Source of the DNA: an uncultured Eubacteriales bacterium
Lineage (GTDB): Bacteria > Bacillota > Clostridia > Peptostreptococcales > Anaerovoracaceae
DNA: 33,748 bases
Direction: 5' to 3'
Assembly: GCA_949285555.1 (NCBI GenBank)
Contig: CASDYG010000010.1
Coordinates: 1-33,748 of the forward strand
Part shown: in pieces, positions 3,675 through 16,248 of the stretch
How positions within the stretch are numbered: position 1 is the first letter of the stretch
Layout: each line of letters opens with the position of its first letter
Notes under the pieces: model-generated
Told to the model about the DNA's origin: nothing
The model's input: only the letters and a program-made list of their open reading frames with translations
Database searches by the model: none
Translations under genes and position numbers: made by a program

Positions 3675-5611
3675 AAGGGTATTTGGAGACGCAGTTGAAC
3701 ATTTTTAAAAGAAGGAAACTATTAAATAAGGGTACTGTAAAACATAGGGTTGGCAGTATAAACCCGAAGAAACTTGAGATAAATGGCAGTGGAAGAAACT
3801 TAGGCATAGAAGGATTGAGAAGTCTGGCGATGATTAGTATTTTGGCATATCATTTATTGCCAAATAAAATTGTCGGTGGACATATTGGAGTATTGGTATT
3901 CTTTATCATCACCGGTTTTTTTACTTTAGATTATATGTTAAGGCATAAGCCGGCTATAAAGGAGTTAGGAAGCTATCTTCTAAAGCGTATTTGGAGTATT
4001 TCATTGCCGCTGCTTGTAGTTACATCTATTGTCAGCTTTTTTGTTTTCGTATTTAATAAGCCGCTTTTAAGCGGGCTCAGGGGGGATTTCTTATCGGCTA
4101 ATCTCTTCTACAACAATTGGTGGCAAATTGCATCGGGCAATTCATATTTTGATAAATTCTTATCTCCTTCAGTTTTTTCACACCTGTGGTTTTTGTCTGT
4201 ACAAATGCAATTTGTAATTGTAGCAACTATCATATGCTTTATTGTAATTAACATAAATAGGAGATCTAAGGATAGCGGAAGAGGCAGGTGGCAGCTATTT
4301 CTTATCATGGGTGCACTCATGCTGTTATCTATGCTCTATATGGCATTTAAATATAGAGATGGACAGGATCCAACGGGGGTATATTATAGCACATTGACAA
4401 GAAGCTATACCCTGCTAATGGGATCTTTATTAGCTATTTTATCACCAGGCTATATACTTGGCAGCAAAGGTGGAGCCAACATCATAAAATGGAATCTTTA
4501 TCTAAAAAACACTTTGGGCATTTTAGTGCTGTTCCTATGGGGCTATGGAGTATTTCACTTCAGTGCTGTGAGCAGCTTTAGCTACCGAGGGGGCTTTATA
4601 ATACTGTCCATCCTTTCGCTACTATTAGTAGTAGCAGCTGCACAAAAAAATACTATATTAAACATGGTACTTTCCAGCTCTCTGTTGGTAGCGATTAGTA
4701 AAAGAAGCTATATATTATATTTATGGCAATATTCTATAGGTGTATTATATGAAACGATGGCTCGTGGACTAGGACTATCATCAAATAAGGGGATATTTTT
4801 CCAAATTTTGATAACAATTATTTTGTCGGAGATTACCTATCAGAGCATTAGATTTTGTAAGAACAAGGCGAGAGGCGATATGAAGCAAAAAATAATAATA
4901 GCACTCATTTTCATAATTATAATAGGCGCAGGACTTACTGGTGTAGTAAGCGGGGCAGAGCGAGAAAAGGATGCAGGGCAAATGCAGCTGGAACTGGCAC
5001 TTAGACAAAAAAGTGCAGGAGGGGCAAAGCTGACTCGTGCTATGGCAATTTTAATCGTACAAGGAGCAAGTGATCACAGAAATATAAGTAAAACGCAAAA
5101 ACGTATTGGTGATTCCCTTGAGATTACTTTTTTAGGTGATTCGGTACTTCTAGCGACTGAAGACTATCTGAAAGATTATTTTCCGGCAATGATATCTGAG
5201 GGCGATGTAGGAAGGCAGTTTTATTCTGCACCTGAAAAACTACAGGAAATGGAAAATGCAGGAGAGCTGAAGAAAGTCGTGGTACTTGTACTAGGTAATA
5301 ATGGTACCATTACAGAGGATGACTTTGCTCAGGTCATGAAGGTGATTGGCAAAAAAAGAATGATATTTGCAGTCAATATGTTGGTTCCTAGAAGCTGGGA
5401 GGAAGGAAATAACAGGCTTTTAGAAAAAATGGGTAAAAAATATCCTAACCTTCATATTATACATTGGCATTCAAAGGCGAAGGAACATACAGAGTGGCTA
5501 TATGGTGACGGGGTACATCCAAATCCAGATGGAGCGAAGATATATGCAGAGTTTGTAGCCCATGAAATATTAAAGGTTATCGAGTACAAGAAGAATATCA
5601 TTGGTAAGTAG
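3659..5611 (+). CDS. OatA-like membrane acyltransferase (acyltransferase 3 + SGNH domain)
   Basis: 650 residues with the two-domain plan of OatA-type wall polymer O-acetyltransferases. Residues about 45-420 are a multi-pass acyltransferase-3 domain (start GIEGLRSLAMISILAYHL with the catalytic-type His, then GGHIGVLVFFIITGFF). Residues about 490-645 are an extracellular SGNH hydrolase-like domain with block I GDS (FLGDSVL), GNNG and the C-terminal DGVHPN (Asp-x-x-His). Such enzymes carry acetyl groups across the membrane and transfer them to peptidoglycan or other surface glycans, giving for example lysozyme resistance. The ATG overlaps the end of ftcD by 16 bases without a good SD; a TTG at 3695 preceded by GGAG is an alternative start that loses only 12 residues. 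The substrate is inferred. Confidence 0.88.
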   Translation: MEFVIKGYLETQLNIFKRRKLLNKGTVKHRVGSINPKKLEINGSGRNLGIEGLRSLAMISILAYHLLPNKIVGGHIGVLVFFIITGFFTLDYMLRHKPAIKELGSYLLKRIWSISLPLLVVTSIVSFFVFVFNKPLLSGLRGDFLSANLFYNNWWQIASGNSYFDKFLSPSVFSHLWFLSVQMQFVIVATIICFIVININRRSKDSGRGRWQLFLIMGALMLLSMLYMAFKYRDGQDPTGVYYSTLTRSYTLLMGSLLAILSPGYILGSKGGANIIKWNLYLKNTLGILVLFLWGYGVFHFSAVSSFSYRGGFIILSILSLLLVVAAAQKNTILNMVLSSSLLVAISKRSYILYLWQYSIGVLYETMARGLGLSSNKGIFFQILITIILSEITYQSIRFCKNKARGDMKQKIIIALIFIIIIGAGLTGVVSGAEREKDAGQMQLELALRQKSAGGAKLTRAMAILIVQGASDHRNISKTQKRIGDSLEITFLGDSVLLATEDYLKDYFPAMISEGDVGRQFYSAPEKLQEMENAGELKKVVVLVLGNNGTITEDDFAQVMKVIGKKRMIFAVNMLVPRSWEEGNNRLLEKMGKKYPNLHIIHWHSKAKEHTEWLYGDGVHPNPDGAKIYAEFVAHEILKVIEYKKNIIGK

Positions 5612-5760
5612 AGAGATGTTAACACAAATGAAGTCTATCATTTTCTGTAGGTCAACCTGCACTGAGTATCTACCTATACGAGTTTTAGACTAAACCATAC
5701 ACATAGGATATACGTCTTTTTAATTATTAACTTAATCTTTCGTTGTGATTTTGAAAAGCT

Positions 5761-7179: not shown

Positions 7180-8109
7180 TTATTTTTGACCTGATGCATT
7201 TAATACATTTTTAATCTTGTGCTTTACCATTGCCTTTATTGCCTCACGTCCAGGTCCCAGATATTTTCGAGGATCAAACTCTTCTGGATTTTCAGTAAGT
7301 ACGCGTCTGATTTCGGCAGTCATTGCAAGTCGCAGGTCTGTGTCAATATTAACTTTGCAAATTCCAAGTCCACATGACGTACGAATCATATCCTCAGGTA
7401 CACCCTGGGCTCCAGGAATCTTTCCACCATACTGATTGCATTTTTCGACAAATTCAGGAATCACTGTAGAAGCTCCATGAAGTACAAGAGGTGTATCTGG
7501 GAGCATGCTATGAATCTTTTTCAGCCGTTCATAATCAAGGTAAGGATCTCCCTTAAATTTATATGCCCCATGGCTCGTACCTATGGCAATTGCAAGGGAA
7601 TCTACACCTGTACGCTCTACAAATTCTACTGCCTCATCAGGGTCAGTAAAGGTAGCATCTCTTGCGCTAACATTCACATCATCTTCCACACCGGCTAATT
7701 TGCCAAGCTCAGCTTCTACCACAACACCCTTACTATGGGCGTATTCAACTACCTGCTTGGTAAGTGCGATATTTTCTTCAAATGGATGCTTGGAGCCATC
7801 TATCATTACAGAGGTGAAGCCATCATCTATACATTGTTTACAGATAGCAAAATCCTCGCCATGATCCAGATGAAGAGCTATATCTATTCCAGTATCTATC
7901 ATAGCTGCTTCTACCAGCTTAAGAAGATATGCAGGCTTGGCATATTTTCTGGCCCCGGCAGATACCTGTAATATTACTGGAGCATTTTCTTCGGCAACAG
8001 CTTCGGCTATTCCCTGGATAATTTCCATGTTATTTACATTAAATGCTCCTACTGCAAAATCTCCCTTGAGTGCTTTCTCAAACATCGCTTTAGTAGTTAT
8101 AAATGCCAT
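7180..8109 (-). CDS. fba: Class II fructose-bisphosphate aldolase
   Basis: 309 residues, typical for class IIA aldolase. It has the zinc-binding and catalytic stretches ALHLDHGEDF, SVMIDGSKHPFEENI, VEAELGKLAGVEDDV, SLAIAIGTSHGAYKF and PLVLHGAST, with CKVNIDTDLR near the C-terminus. It splits fructose-1,6-bisphosphate to dihydroxyacetone phosphate and glyceraldehyde-3-phosphate in central glycolysis. SD AGGAGG stands just before the ATG. It lies 68 bases downstream of the MltG-like gene on the same strand, with no terminator between, so a shared transcript from 8715 is possible. Confidence 0.96.
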   Translation of the reverse strand: MAFITTKAMFEKALKGDFAVGAFNVNNMEIIQGIAEAVAEENAPVILQVSAGARKYAKPAYLLKLVEAAMIDTGIDIALHLDHGEDFAICKQCIDDGFTSVMIDGSKHPFEENIALTKQVVEYAHSKGVVVEAELGKLAGVEDDVNVSARDATFTDPDEAVEFVERTGVDSLAIAIGTSHGAYKFKGDPYLDYERLKKIHSMLPDTPLVLHGASTVIPEFVEKCNQYGGKIPGAQGVPEDMIRTSCGLGICKVNIDTDLRLAMTAEIRRVLTENPEEFDPRKYLGPGREAIKAMVKHKIKNVLNASGQK

Positions 8110-13576: not shown

Positions 13577-13931
13577 GGGGATGTAATGGTTTCGACGTGG
13601 ATACTAAAACAAGATAAGCGAGTCGTAGTCACCCAGTCTACGTAAAAAAGGGTCGTTTAAATATAAACGCTAAAAAGAATAATAATTTTGCTCTAGCAGC
13701 GTAATTGCAGGAGCTGCCTCTTAGGGGATTCTCTCAGACCCTACAGCAGGTATCATTTATGAGAGAAGGTGTGCAGTTTATCCACGGTTCTGTACATCTA
13801 GCATAGTGGATCGTAGCACGTGGCTTTGCTATCTGTAGCCATGGGTTATTAAATTCAAACAGTAGCTGTACTCGGAGAAAGTCTTGTGGAGGGGTTTGCG
13901 GACGCGAGTTCGACTCTCGCCATCTCCACCA
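13577..13931 (+). ncRNA. ssrA: Transfer-messenger RNA
   Basis: About 355 bases. The 5' end GGGGATGTAATGGTTTCGAC and 3' end GAGTTCGACTCTCGCCATC, with T-arm GTTCGAC, are diagnostic; acceptor arms GGGGATG / CATCTCC pair with one G-U and are followed by ACCA. The resume codon is GCT at 13669 and the tag ORF reads AKKNNNFALAA and stops at TAA 13702, giving a tag with the proteolysis signal ALAA after the charging alanine. It rescues stalled ribosomes with SmpB. The last 11 bases are also the left core of an integrated element (13921-16175), so the gene end has been re-formed by insertion without loss of the tRNA-like domain. Confidence 0.97.
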
Positions 13932-13934
13932 CAT
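13921..13934 (+). repeat. attL-like 14-bp direct repeat (ssrA 3' end)
   Basis: CATCTCCACCACAT. Eleven bases belong to the tmRNA; the rest lie just after it. Identical copy at 16162. Confidence 0.75.
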
Positions 13935-13939
13935 TTATT

Positions 13940-13970
13940 GCCTTGGCTTATAATAGCCAGGGCTCTTTTA
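13940..13970 (+). terminator. Terminator immediately after ssrA
   Basis: Stem GCCTTGGCT / AGCCAGGGC (9 pairs, one G-U), loop TATAAT, then TCTTTTA. By the att geometry it lies inside the inserted element. Confidence 0.75.
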
Positions 13971-14149
13971 TTGCAAGGAATTCGGGTGATAAGGTCTGCA
14001 GTAGCAAGCCTTCAAATGTAATTAGATTGTTATAGGAAATAAAGCGTTTTATAATCACGATGTACTGACTTTTATTTTCCTGCGGATTTTGAATGTATTT
14101 TTATAATAACAAACAGCAATAATAATATGATCTAATGCATCATTTGTAA

Positions 14150-14203
14150 TTTTAACGCATCACTCGTTAAAATCTTTGTTTTTAACGCGCACATGTGTTA
14201 AAA
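14150..14203 (+). promoter_or_regulatory. Twin operator palindromes TTTTAACG/CGTTAAAA
   Basis: TTTTAACG (14150-14157) with CGTTAAAA (14165-14172), and TTTTAAC (14180-14186) with GTTAAAA (14197-14203). Centres are about 30 bases apart, near three helical turns. The second palindrome covers the -35/-10 region of the downstream gene, which fits autoregulation by its product (inference). Confidence 0.65.
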
Positions 14204-14204
14204 T
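14176..14204 (+). promoter_or_regulatory. Promoter of the AlbA_2 regulator gene
   Basis: TTGTTT (14176-14181), 17-base spacer, TAAAAT (14199-14204); it overlaps the second operator palindrome. Confidence 0.55.
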
Positions 14205-14222
14205 GTTTTCGGAGGTGTTATT

Positions 14223-15872
14223 ATGCTACCAAAGAAAGAAACCTTAACTATTGAGTTTAAAAGCGATAGAAACAAATTGCAGAATTCAGACATTTTTGAT
14301 GCGGTTGTTGCATTTGCTAATACAGAGGGGGGTGATTTGTATCTTGGTATAGAAGACTCTGGGGAGGTAACAGGTGTACACAAGGATCACAAAAATCATG
14401 CAACACTCACTGCATTTATTGCGAACAACACACTTCCTCCTGTCTCAGTTCGAGCAGAGATAATAGAAGAGAACCATCCTGTACTTAAAATATCTGTTCC
14501 GAAGTCTTATAACGGAATTGTTGCTACAATCTCCGGTAAAGTCCTACGACGTCGAATTAAAGCGGATGGAACACCGGAAAACGTACCCATGTATCCTGCA
14601 GAATTTGCAAGTAGACTTTCTGAACTACGGATGATTGACTACTCTGCAATGCCAGTTTTGGAATGTTCCATAGATGATTTTGACCCTTTAGAGATAGAAC
14701 AGTTACGAAATGTAATCCTTTCCTATAATGGTGAGCGTTCTCTTTTGGATCTTTCAGATGAAGACTTATTTAAGGCTCTTGGCCTCGTTCGCGATCTCAA
14801 CGGACAGTTGGTTCCAACAATTACCGGACTTTTGTTGATAGGCAGAATCGATGCACTTAAGTGTCATGTACCAACTCACACTTCATCATTTCAGGTTTTT
14901 GCCGGAACTGATGTAAAGATTAATGATGATATGTGTCTTCCTCTATTGTCGACCATTGACAAAATTAATACGTATATGGATGCTTGGAACCCTGAGCAAG
15001 AAATAGAGATGGGCCTTTTTCGTATATCTATCCCTGATTTTAATAAGAGAGCTTTTCGTGAAGCACTTGTTAATGCATTTAGCCACCGAGATTACTCAAA
15101 AATGGGACGAGTACGTATTGCTATTAATGATGATGGGCTTACTATTGCAAATCCCGGCGGTTTCATAGAGGGTGTATCCATAAAGAATCTTCTCAATGCA
15201 GAACCACATGGAAGGAATCCTCAACTTGCCGATGCATTAAAACGAATTGGTTTAGCTGAGAAAACGGGTAGAGGGATTGATCGTATATATGAAGGCTCTT
15301 TACTTTACGGGAATCCACTTCCGGACTACAGCAATTCAACTCTGGTCACGGTGTCGCTGTTTATTCCACGCAGTAAGCCGGATTCGCAGATAGCAAAACT
15401 TGTATCCAGTGAGCAGAAACGCCTGGGCAGGCCATTATCGTTAAACACTCTGTTAGTCCTAAATGTATTGAAAGACATACCTCGTTCAAATCTTACCGAT
15501 ATCGCCGAAGCGGTGAACCTATCAGAGATTGCTACAAAGGCAATACTAGATACTTCAATAGAATGTGGTATTGTTGATATTTATGGAAGTGGTCGAAACA
15601 GAACTTACATTCTTTCACCAAAGATATACAGCACAAAATCAAAACGCATTGGTTATGTGCGACAAGTTGATATTGATGAAACCAGATACCCTGAACTGAT
15701 TATCAATCTAGCTAAAACCAATGAGTTTATCTCACGTGCAGACGTAGTTCAGCTATTACATGTTGATAATAACAAAGCTTATAGATTGCTCAAGAGTCTT
15801 GTCGACCAGGGAGTTTTAGAACCTATAAACAAAGGACGATATGCGAAATATCGCCATAGTGGAAATGATTAA
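14223..15872 (+). CDS. Schlafen AlbA_2 / ATP-binding regulator (COG2865 type)
   Basis: 549 residues. Residues about 1-130 are an AlbA_2 (Schlafen core) domain: ETLTIEFKSDR, VVAFANTEGGDLYLGIEDSGEVTGV and RRRIKADGTPENVPMYPAE. Residues about 265-385 are a GHKL-like ATPase part (FREALVNAFSHRDYS with the Asn-box type EALVNAF-HRDY; IANPGGF; GRNPQLADALKRIGLAEKTGRGIDRIYEG). The C-terminus (about 410-545) holds two predicted winged-helix segments (SNLTDIAEAVNLSEIATKAIL; ISRADVVQLLHVDNNKAYRLLKSL). SD GGAGG is 7 bases before the ATG. It is the only gene of the ssrA-inserted element. Family members are usually annotated as transcriptional regulators; some AlbA_2 proteins occur in defence loci. The target is unknown; the flanking palindromes are natural candidates. 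Confidence 0.85.
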   Translation: MLPKKETLTIEFKSDRNKLQNSDIFDAVVAFANTEGGDLYLGIEDSGEVTGVHKDHKNHATLTAFIANNTLPPVSVRAEIIEENHPVLKISVPKSYNGIVATISGKVLRRRIKADGTPENVPMYPAEFASRLSELRMIDYSAMPVLECSIDDFDPLEIEQLRNVILSYNGERSLLDLSDEDLFKALGLVRDLNGQLVPTITGLLLIGRIDALKCHVPTHTSSFQVFAGTDVKINDDMCLPLLSTIDKINTYMDAWNPEQEIEMGLFRISIPDFNKRAFREALVNAFSHRDYSKMGRVRIAINDDGLTIANPGGFIEGVSIKNLLNAEPHGRNPQLADALKRIGLAEKTGRGIDRIYEGSLLYGNPLPDYSNSTLVTVSLFIPRSKPDSQIAKLVSSEQKRLGRPLSLNTLLVLNVLKDIPRSNLTDIAEAVNLSEIATKAILDTSIECGIVDIYGSGRNRTYILSPKIYSTKSKRIGYVRQVDIDETRYPELIINLAKTNEFISRADVVQLLHVDNNKAYRLLKSLVDQGVLEPINKGRYAKYRHSGND

Positions 15873-15875
15873 ACT

Positions 15876-15987
15876 AACACTCGTTTAACACGCATATAAT
15901 AAATATAAAAATCTTAACTTTTAGCAAAATGCAGAAATCCAACACGCATTTAACACTTACGTAACGCTCGCCAACGCTCATTTAATA
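15876..15987 (+). repeat. Direct repeats with AACRC(T/G)C core downstream of the AlbA_2 gene
   Basis: AACACTCGTTTAACACGC (15876-15893), AACACGCATTTAACAC (15941-15956), AACGCTCGCC (15963-15972) and AACGCTCATTTAATA (15973-15987). They share the TTTAAC/AACGC words with the operators upstream of the gene at 14150-14203, so the gene is bracketed by related sites. Confidence 0.6.
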
Positions 15988-16161
15988 GAATAGCAAGTAA
16001 AAAATAATATTAGAGAAAAACAATGACTATACAAATCGTGAACTAAAATACTGAAGAAAAGCTTGGAAAGTTAAATACAAAGTTGGAGATAAATTGAAGA
16101 TGTTTGGAGTACGGCCTCTGAAACTCTTAAAACTAAAGGGATTACAGATCTGTAGCCATAA

Positions 16162-16175
16162 CATCTCCACCACAT
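16162..16175 (+). repeat. attR-like 14-bp direct repeat
   Basis: CATCTCCACCACAT, identical to 13921-13934. The bases beyond both ends differ between the copies. Confidence 0.75.
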
Positions 16176-16211
16176 CGTAACGCTTCTAAAGGGATTATAA
16201 TAGAAGCTAGG

Positions 16212-16248
16212 GGATATTCTATGCCTTTGGGATAGTATGTCCTTTTTT
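16212..16248 (+). terminator. Probable original ssrA terminator, now displaced
   Basis: Hairpin GGATATTCTAT / ATAGTATGTCC (11 positions, one G-U, one mismatch) with a T-run, 36 bases after the right repeat. By insertion logic this is the host terminator that once followed ssrA directly. Confidence 0.6.

Follow-up and report, generated by a model that had tools for sequence, protein, structure and literature searches.

The stretch of DNA analysed here (the window; 33,748 nucleotides, contig C10 of a 1,445,866-base assembly in 16 contigs that is 90% complete) comes from an uncultured Eubacteriales bacterium and carries, at the 3′ end of its tmRNA gene ssrA, a 2.2-kb segment that is bounded by two identical 14-bp repeats and holds a single intact gene, predicted to encode a bacterial Schlafen-type protein. 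The ssrA 3′ end is a classical integration target. Our best explanation of the locus as a whole, to which we assign a probability of roughly 0.55, is an integrase-less ssrA islet remnant of the cis-mobilizable type, with a putative Schlafen RNase, predicted to bind its own flanking sites, as its cargo. The features concerned are:

13577..13931, + strand: tmRNA gene (ssrA), tag AKKNNNFALAA (Rfam RF00023, 170.9 bits)
13921..13934, + strand: left 14-bp repeat (attL-like), the ssrA 3′ end including CCA and 3 further bases
13940..13963, + strand: hairpin with a T-rich tail, presumed element-borne ssrA terminator (folding z −3.7; in the pattern scan)
14150..14172, no strand: palindrome TTTTAACG-N7-CGTTAAAA, predicted operator 1
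14180..14203, no strand: palindrome TTTTAAC-N10-GTTAAAA, predicted operator 2, in the promoter region
14223..15872, + strand: gene for the bacterial Schlafen-type protein, 549 aa (SLFN_AlbA_2 at 6-100, HATPase_c_4 at 296-373, winged-helix stretches at about 408-451 and 503-544)
15876..15979, + strand: six AACRC half-sites in direct orientation, starting at 15876, 15887, 15941, 15952, 15963, and 15973, in steps of 10-11 bp within two groups
16162..16175, + strand: right 14-bp repeat (attR-like)
16209..16245, + strand: hairpin with a T-run, presumed original, displaced ssrA terminator (folding z −2.7, 2 of 200 shuffles being as good; absent from the pattern scan)

The repeat, CATCTCCACCACAT, extends 3 bp beyond the CCA encoded by ssrA, and in a scan of the whole assembly the exact 14-mer is confined to 13921-13934 and 16162-16175, while 23 other sites resemble it with one or two mismatches. 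The second copy is above chance. Shuffled sequence gives an expectation of 0.22 matches with at most two mismatches per window, both strands included, which, scaled by the 862 sequences that lie within two mismatches (our own arithmetic), puts the chance of an exact second copy at about 3e-4 per window. When the ssrA end is aligned locally to the 1.5 kb that follow the gene, the score is 28; 300 simple letter shuffles reach 26 at most. Along the 2.2 kb between the repeats, 14223-15872 is the sole open reading frame (ORF) of at least 80 aa. Close to the right repeat, 12 bases (ATCTGTAGCCAT, 16148-16159) that end 2 bases before it are identical to an internal piece of the tmRNA gene (13831-13842), and CTAAAGGGATTA flanks it on both sides, at 16133-16144 and 16186-16197, 53 bp apart; the latter pair could be arm-type sites, or chance.

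Each copy of the repeat is followed by a hairpin, which begins 5 bp past the left copy and 33 bp past the right one. This arrangement is expected of an insertion behind ssrA, the incoming DNA supplying a terminator of its own and displacing the previous one. A terminator pattern scan of the region found two candidates against 1.8 in shuffles, which is no excess, and listed the left hairpin and not the right. The support that the hairpins appear to lend to an insertion is therefore moderate.

A reading made earlier from the sequence alone (the sequence-only reading) had described identical 14-bp repeats at the ssrA 3′ end and about 2.24 kb further on, enclosing one gene, as the bounds of an element without a recombinase gene; the repeats, the single gene and the lack of a recombinase are borne out. 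The DNA between the repeats contains no recombinase gene, and thus no integrase of its own as in an integrative and conjugative element, an integrative and mobilizable element or a phage satellite, and on the whole contig neither PF00589 (the tyrosine-integrase family) nor PF00239 (resolvases) has a match. Across the assembly, PF00589 has three matches: C1:117588, which adjoins miaA-like and lyase-like genes (by reading of ORFs), C3:151817, and C3:105264, which is a C-terminal integrase piece with a stop; PF00239 matches once and incompletely, over its profile positions 1-64, in a frame of 149 aa. In these searches of a 90%-complete assembly, no candidate for an ssrA-directed integrase was recognised. 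A helper integrase in the same genome was considered and set aside, the assembly having just two full-length recombinases, at least one of them chromosomal-looking, plus remnants. The assembly holds no second copy of the region.

Among four sampled congeners, neither an empty site nor a larger version with an integrase was found. The ssrA gene was detected in three of them (G001, G002, and G004), where the window's right flank does not lie beside it, and G003 has no ssrA match; the smpB side is common to the window and G004 alone. In one congener (G002:C26:77184-78417; L005, L007) a broken, distant AlbA_2-type gene lies about 330 bp from the ssrA 5′ side.

The protein has the predicted architecture of a bacterial Schlafen, combining an SLFN_AlbA_2 domain (63 bits against a curated Pfam cut-off of 25.3), a GHKL-type ATPase domain (HATPase_c_4, 58.8 bits, Pfam) and winged helices. 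The winged-helix families HTH_IclR (24.1 bits) and HTH_24 (22.8 bits) match the whole protein barely over the cut-off and no stretch passes on its own, and an NCBIfam search of the protein gave no match. When the window protein is aligned with 20 relatives from a contig scan that found 24 (L027, L034, L037, and L039 were omitted as cut or broken), E6 and E11 are invariant and D45 is present in at least 90% of the 21 sequences. The invariant E280, N284, and D303 resemble the residues of the GHKL N- and G1-boxes. A profile of this alignment matches the core domains of SLFN8/13, SLFN11, SLFN5, SLFN12, and SLFN14, and E6, E11, and D45 align with the 5yd0 chain residues that equal rat SLFN13 E205, E210, and D248 (an offset of 13, worked out in this analysis). 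According to the excerpt available of the SLFN13 study, changes at these three residues abolish or reduce cleavage (structure 5YD0; PMC5862951). The window protein is thus a putative RNase. Its gene is under strong purifying selection: compared with the relative L017, nonsynonymous divergence (dN) is 0.073 and synonymous divergence (dS) 2.15, dS being saturated in comparisons with L018-L020. The sequence-only reading had called this an AlbA_2/ATPase regulator gene; Pfam supports the AlbA_2 and ATPase parts of that description, and a bacterial Schlafen, a putative RNase, fits better than a regulator.

Motifs of one type bracket the gene, with palindromes at the promoter and 11-bp-phased direct repeats behind it, and this is new here; a limited search of open-licence PubMed Central articles found no description of flanking arrays of bacterial Schlafens. 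We followed the motifs through 40 loci (the window, 24 from the contig scan, 7 from a sample of its family and 8 from a sample of its phylum), of which 38 entered the statistics, L027 and L034 being dropped because the DNA behind their genes is truncated; L072 covers just part of its gene, and what counts as its “upstream” is therefore no real flank. In 21 of the 38 loci there are 31 palindromic pairs upstream (null mean 0.57, maximum 4 over 1000 shuffles), and 11 of the 38 hold the 24 phased pairs counted downstream (null mean 0.26, maximum 3 over 1000 shuffles), while control stretches 600 and 1000 bp further on contain 0 and 1 pairs (36 loci each). Seven loci covering five distant AlbA_2-type genes, from the window's own genome and its congeners, contain no phased AACRC pair, and L040 (labelled Methanothrix) has a downstream array under a looser motif. 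The two sides of a locus also resemble each other, sharing 5.6 8-mers on average within a locus against 1.8 across loci, and none of 20000 permutations reaches the observed sum. The window's upstream side is matched better by the downstream flanks of seven other loci than by its own, and that of L017 by seventeen, so the co-variation belongs to the set and not to every locus. Most simply read, the winged helices would bind these flanking sites and repress their own promoter. In L022 the motif arrays are repeated around the gene (5040-5654 and 7645-7980), and a stretch there resembles, by eye, a truncated second AlbA_2-type gene.

The genomic setting of the relatives gives further hints of site-specific insertion. 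In 4 of the 40 loci (the window, L026, L032, and L073), the 1 kb upstream of the gene contains a tRNA or tmRNA gene on the same strand, against 0 of 155 other ORFs of at least 150 aa from the set of 40 (Fisher p 0.0016); the 4 of 40 becomes 3 of 39 once the window, which was picked for its tmRNA, is left out. At L032 (2272-5020), the 3′ end of a tRNA-Thr gene together with a terminator occurs in three copies, which bound first a RelBE-like pair, named by reading ORFs, and then the Schlafen gene, an arrangement that resembles a small row of cassettes; in L026 a second tRNA-Arg-like sequence precedes the gene (by eye). Remnants of integrase C-termini lie 89-137 bp from the gene in L020 (5781-5912), L026 (7740-7982), and L033 (7781-8035). 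No intact integrase was found in the 40 loci by tblastn with 19 integrase seeds, a search that divergent integrases can escape and that reached at most 6 kb a side for 24 loci (7 of which have under 1 kb to one side or both) and about 1.5 kb for the other 15. Two ORFs picked up by a looser integrase pattern were judged not to be integrases. In G186, one contig carries both the gene and, among the matches listed, an integrase at a distance of 14.8 kb. In Alloscardovia, the gene and the AbiEi-like one beside it are absent from four of four congeners, where the two bordering genes adjoin each other; the segment with the AbiEi-like and Schlafen genes (L028, 5041-7660) has a 12-bp inverted repeat, CTACTGGGGTAA/TTACCCCAGTAG, at its two ends. 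Direct repeats of 119 bp (80%) in L037 were rejected as att sites, one copy being inside a helicase gene, and direct repeats occur in L036 and L022 too.

At 11 loci, 20 neighbouring proteins were searched, one or two per locus, and a defence-type gene is near 6 of the 11 relatives examined: an SLFN-g3 helicase (PADLOC PDC-S41) with nSTAND3 nearby in L018, type I restriction in L022, TIR in L023, AbiEi in L028, HNH in L017, and a DUF3427/PLD helicase (mREase_IV) in L037. In the remaining five, the neighbours are ordinary or unassigned.

Relatives are rare, occurring in about 2-3% of the genomes sampled in the family, order and phylum. A relative is present in 8 of 296 sampled genomes of the window's family (E<=1e-80, its own included), the seven others being 52-58% identical, in 7 of 393 of the order and in 8 of 398 of the phylum (both at E<=1e-100, own genome included); the family and order matches overlap. 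The contig scan, which yielded its 24 relatives from 39 candidate stretches, reaches further: identity is 79-87% in four Lachnospiraceae/Clostridia metagenome-assembled genomes (MAGs), 83% in the isolate [Clostridium] aminophilum, whose copy carries an internal stop, 70% in a MAG called Synergistes, 64% in the isolate Alloscardovia macacae, 58% in Aeromonadales, Succinivibrionaceae and Acidaminococcaceae MAGs, and 37% in a MAG called Methanothrix, with the others between; contigs of MAGs may be misbinned. The four congeners have no close copy (three of them have weak matches), viral contigs have no match to the search patterns, and the matches in plasmid and phage records are all below 60% identity. 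The copy in the Alloscardovia isolate is closer than any of the seven own-family matches sampled, so the distribution, patchy across phyla, speaks for horizontal spread.

From these observations we propose the following course of events. Site-specific recombination would have put a 2.2-kb islet at the ssrA 3′ end, leaving the 14-bp core at both ends, and the islet would have supplied a replacement terminator for ssrA; since no same-species empty site is available, we infer this insertion. What is left may be an integrase-less remnant of the cis-mobilizable type. The winged helices are predicted to bind the two upstream palindromes, which would keep the gene nearly silent, and to occupy the phased downstream half-sites along a single face of the helix. 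A signal of phage origin, read through the ATPase/winged-helix part, could then free the AlbA_2 nuclease, which would cut tRNA or other RNA and stop growth. In this form the islet looks like a stripped-down movable defence gene.

Several observations weigh against this explanation. The repeat is just 14 bp long, no same-species empty site was found, and the closest relatives (L017-L020 and L037, 79-87% identical) have no tRNA or tmRNA gene upstream in the DNA covered, which implies that the gene also moves by other routes. In 14 of the 38 loci, AACRC half-sites upstream do not occupy both strands, and 27 of the 38 lack a downstream phased pair. The catalytic triad does not prove RNase activity, because human SLFN5 and mouse SLFN1 retain the equivalents of E205 and E210 and leave the tRNAs tested uncut, as far as the excerpt of PMC5862951 goes, and the profile of our alignment matches SLFN5 as well. 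The window's neighbours that were searched include no recognised defence gene. In G784, a genome of another family, a relative that is 49% identical lies 160 bp behind ssrA, and no second copy of the ssrA end was found within 12.8 kb downstream, nor any match above shuffles. This G784 case (L073 / L108, 6723-8872 on G784:C10) is independent of the window, and a further copy of the gene lies on G784 C9; a hidden right repeat was sought at the C10 locus and rejected, the single exact 11-base copy of the ssrA end sitting 3.6 kb upstream of the ssrA 3′ end, a position that a right end could not have. The insertion read from the sequence alone is partly supported: the att-like repeats at a classical target, the hairpins, the lack of a recombinase, the patchy, horizontal spread and the recurrence of relatives at tRNA/tmRNA 3′ ends count in favour, whereas a relative at ssrA without a second repeat, the kind of case which that reading had itself named as refuting it, is found in this distant genome.

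The G784 relative would be readily explained if the segment were not an element and the gene had come in 3′ of ssrA by illegitimate or homologous recombination, the second 14-mer being chance or an unrelated duplication. Many relatives likewise lack a long direct repeat around the gene, motif arrays aside, and the DNA similarity between the window and L017 spans 14121-15894, the gene with its near flanks, and falls short of the full 2.2 kb. Chance alone, though, would yield an exact second copy about 3e-4 times per window, and the paired hairpins and the tRNA/tmRNA enrichment would be left over, so we regard this account as unlikely. Somewhat less probable still is an active minimal satellite, excised and moved in trans by the ssrA-using integrase of a co-resident element: its two att-like copies are identical and relatives do occur as small units at tRNA genes, such as L032 with its tRNA-Thr 3′ ends and terminator, but the 90%-complete assembly contains no ssrA-directed integrase candidate, the region is single-copy, viral contigs give no pattern match, and plasmid and phage matches stay below 60% identity. 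We prefer “remnant” to “active satellite” because no recombinase serving ssrA was recognised and the assembly holds a single copy. The sequence-only reading had offered a decayed island or a satellite moved in trans; its premise of no recombinase holds, and its two options cannot be separated.

Other possibilities concern the cargo. The protein might be a DNA-binding regulator of nearby defence genes and no nuclease, in the manner of WYL (BrxR-type) regulators, which would agree with the palindromes over the promoter, the winged helices, the defence-type genes near 6 of 11 relatives and those Schlafens that, in the excerpt of PMC5862951, keep catalytic residues and leave tRNA uncut. We consider this doubtful, if the most plausible of the alternatives, given the conservation of E6, E11, and D45 in the nuclease domain and the lack of a recognised defence gene beside the window gene to regulate. 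It is also conceivable, at rather long odds, that the gene and its flanking repeats spread as a unit of their own. This would be a Schlafen cassette of one gene that regulates itself, with palindromes at its promoter and an 11-bp-phased array at its far side, the sequences of which change together between lineages; it would move between phyla without a recombinase, either hitch-hiking on any integrase at tRNA/tmRNA sites or using its arrays as ends or as a sensor of DNA state.

Both integrase-less ssrA islands and the bacterial Schlafen protein class are already published. In the available excerpt of a study of Dehalococcoides, 15 ssrA genomic islands without an integration module are called possible cis-mobilizable elements (PMC3146451). 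The window resembles those islands, as the excerpt describes them, in having the ssrA 3′ end repeated at the far end and no recombinase inside, and differs in that theirs have a 20-bp repeat and stand in tandem arrays beside serine-recombinase islands, while here one lone gene lies within 14-bp bounds (PMC3146451). We say that the islet works like a cis-mobilizable element, and not that it is one, because no helper using ssrA was recognised in the 90%-complete assembly. A study from 2026 describes, in the excerpt available, bacterial RNases of the Schlafen class that carry a minimal histidine kinase and a winged helix-turn-helix in fusion, lie beside BREX systems and spread with them (PMC12839542). 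The window protein and its relatives share with these the domain order and the conserved triad, and many of the relatives also seem to lie near a defence gene, whereas the window gene is solitary, in a one-gene islet, with upstream palindromes and downstream phased repeats, sites that the excerpt of PMC12839542 does not mention. In the PDB, structure 3lmm (“uncharacterized protein”) aligns over the ATPase-like and winged-helix parts (E 2.1e-30), with the AlbA_2 part aligning at profile positions 25-55 alone (11 bits); its entry names no function. We take 3lmm to be DIP1874 of Corynebacterium diphtheriae. Regulators of the WYL-domain type are not known to contain an AlbA_2 or an ATPase domain. 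Those of defence islands likewise lie near defence genes, where they act as transcription regulators according to the excerpt available (PMC9122601).

If the proposed explanation is true, a classical integration site in the window would house a very small islet with a defence gene. To our knowledge, how Schlafen RNases stay silent and what switches them on are open questions. The locus would give bacterial Schlafens a concrete, testable regulatory anatomy, made up of operators over the promoter plus a phased array past the end of the gene, in which the locus-specific site sequences can be matched to their proteins.

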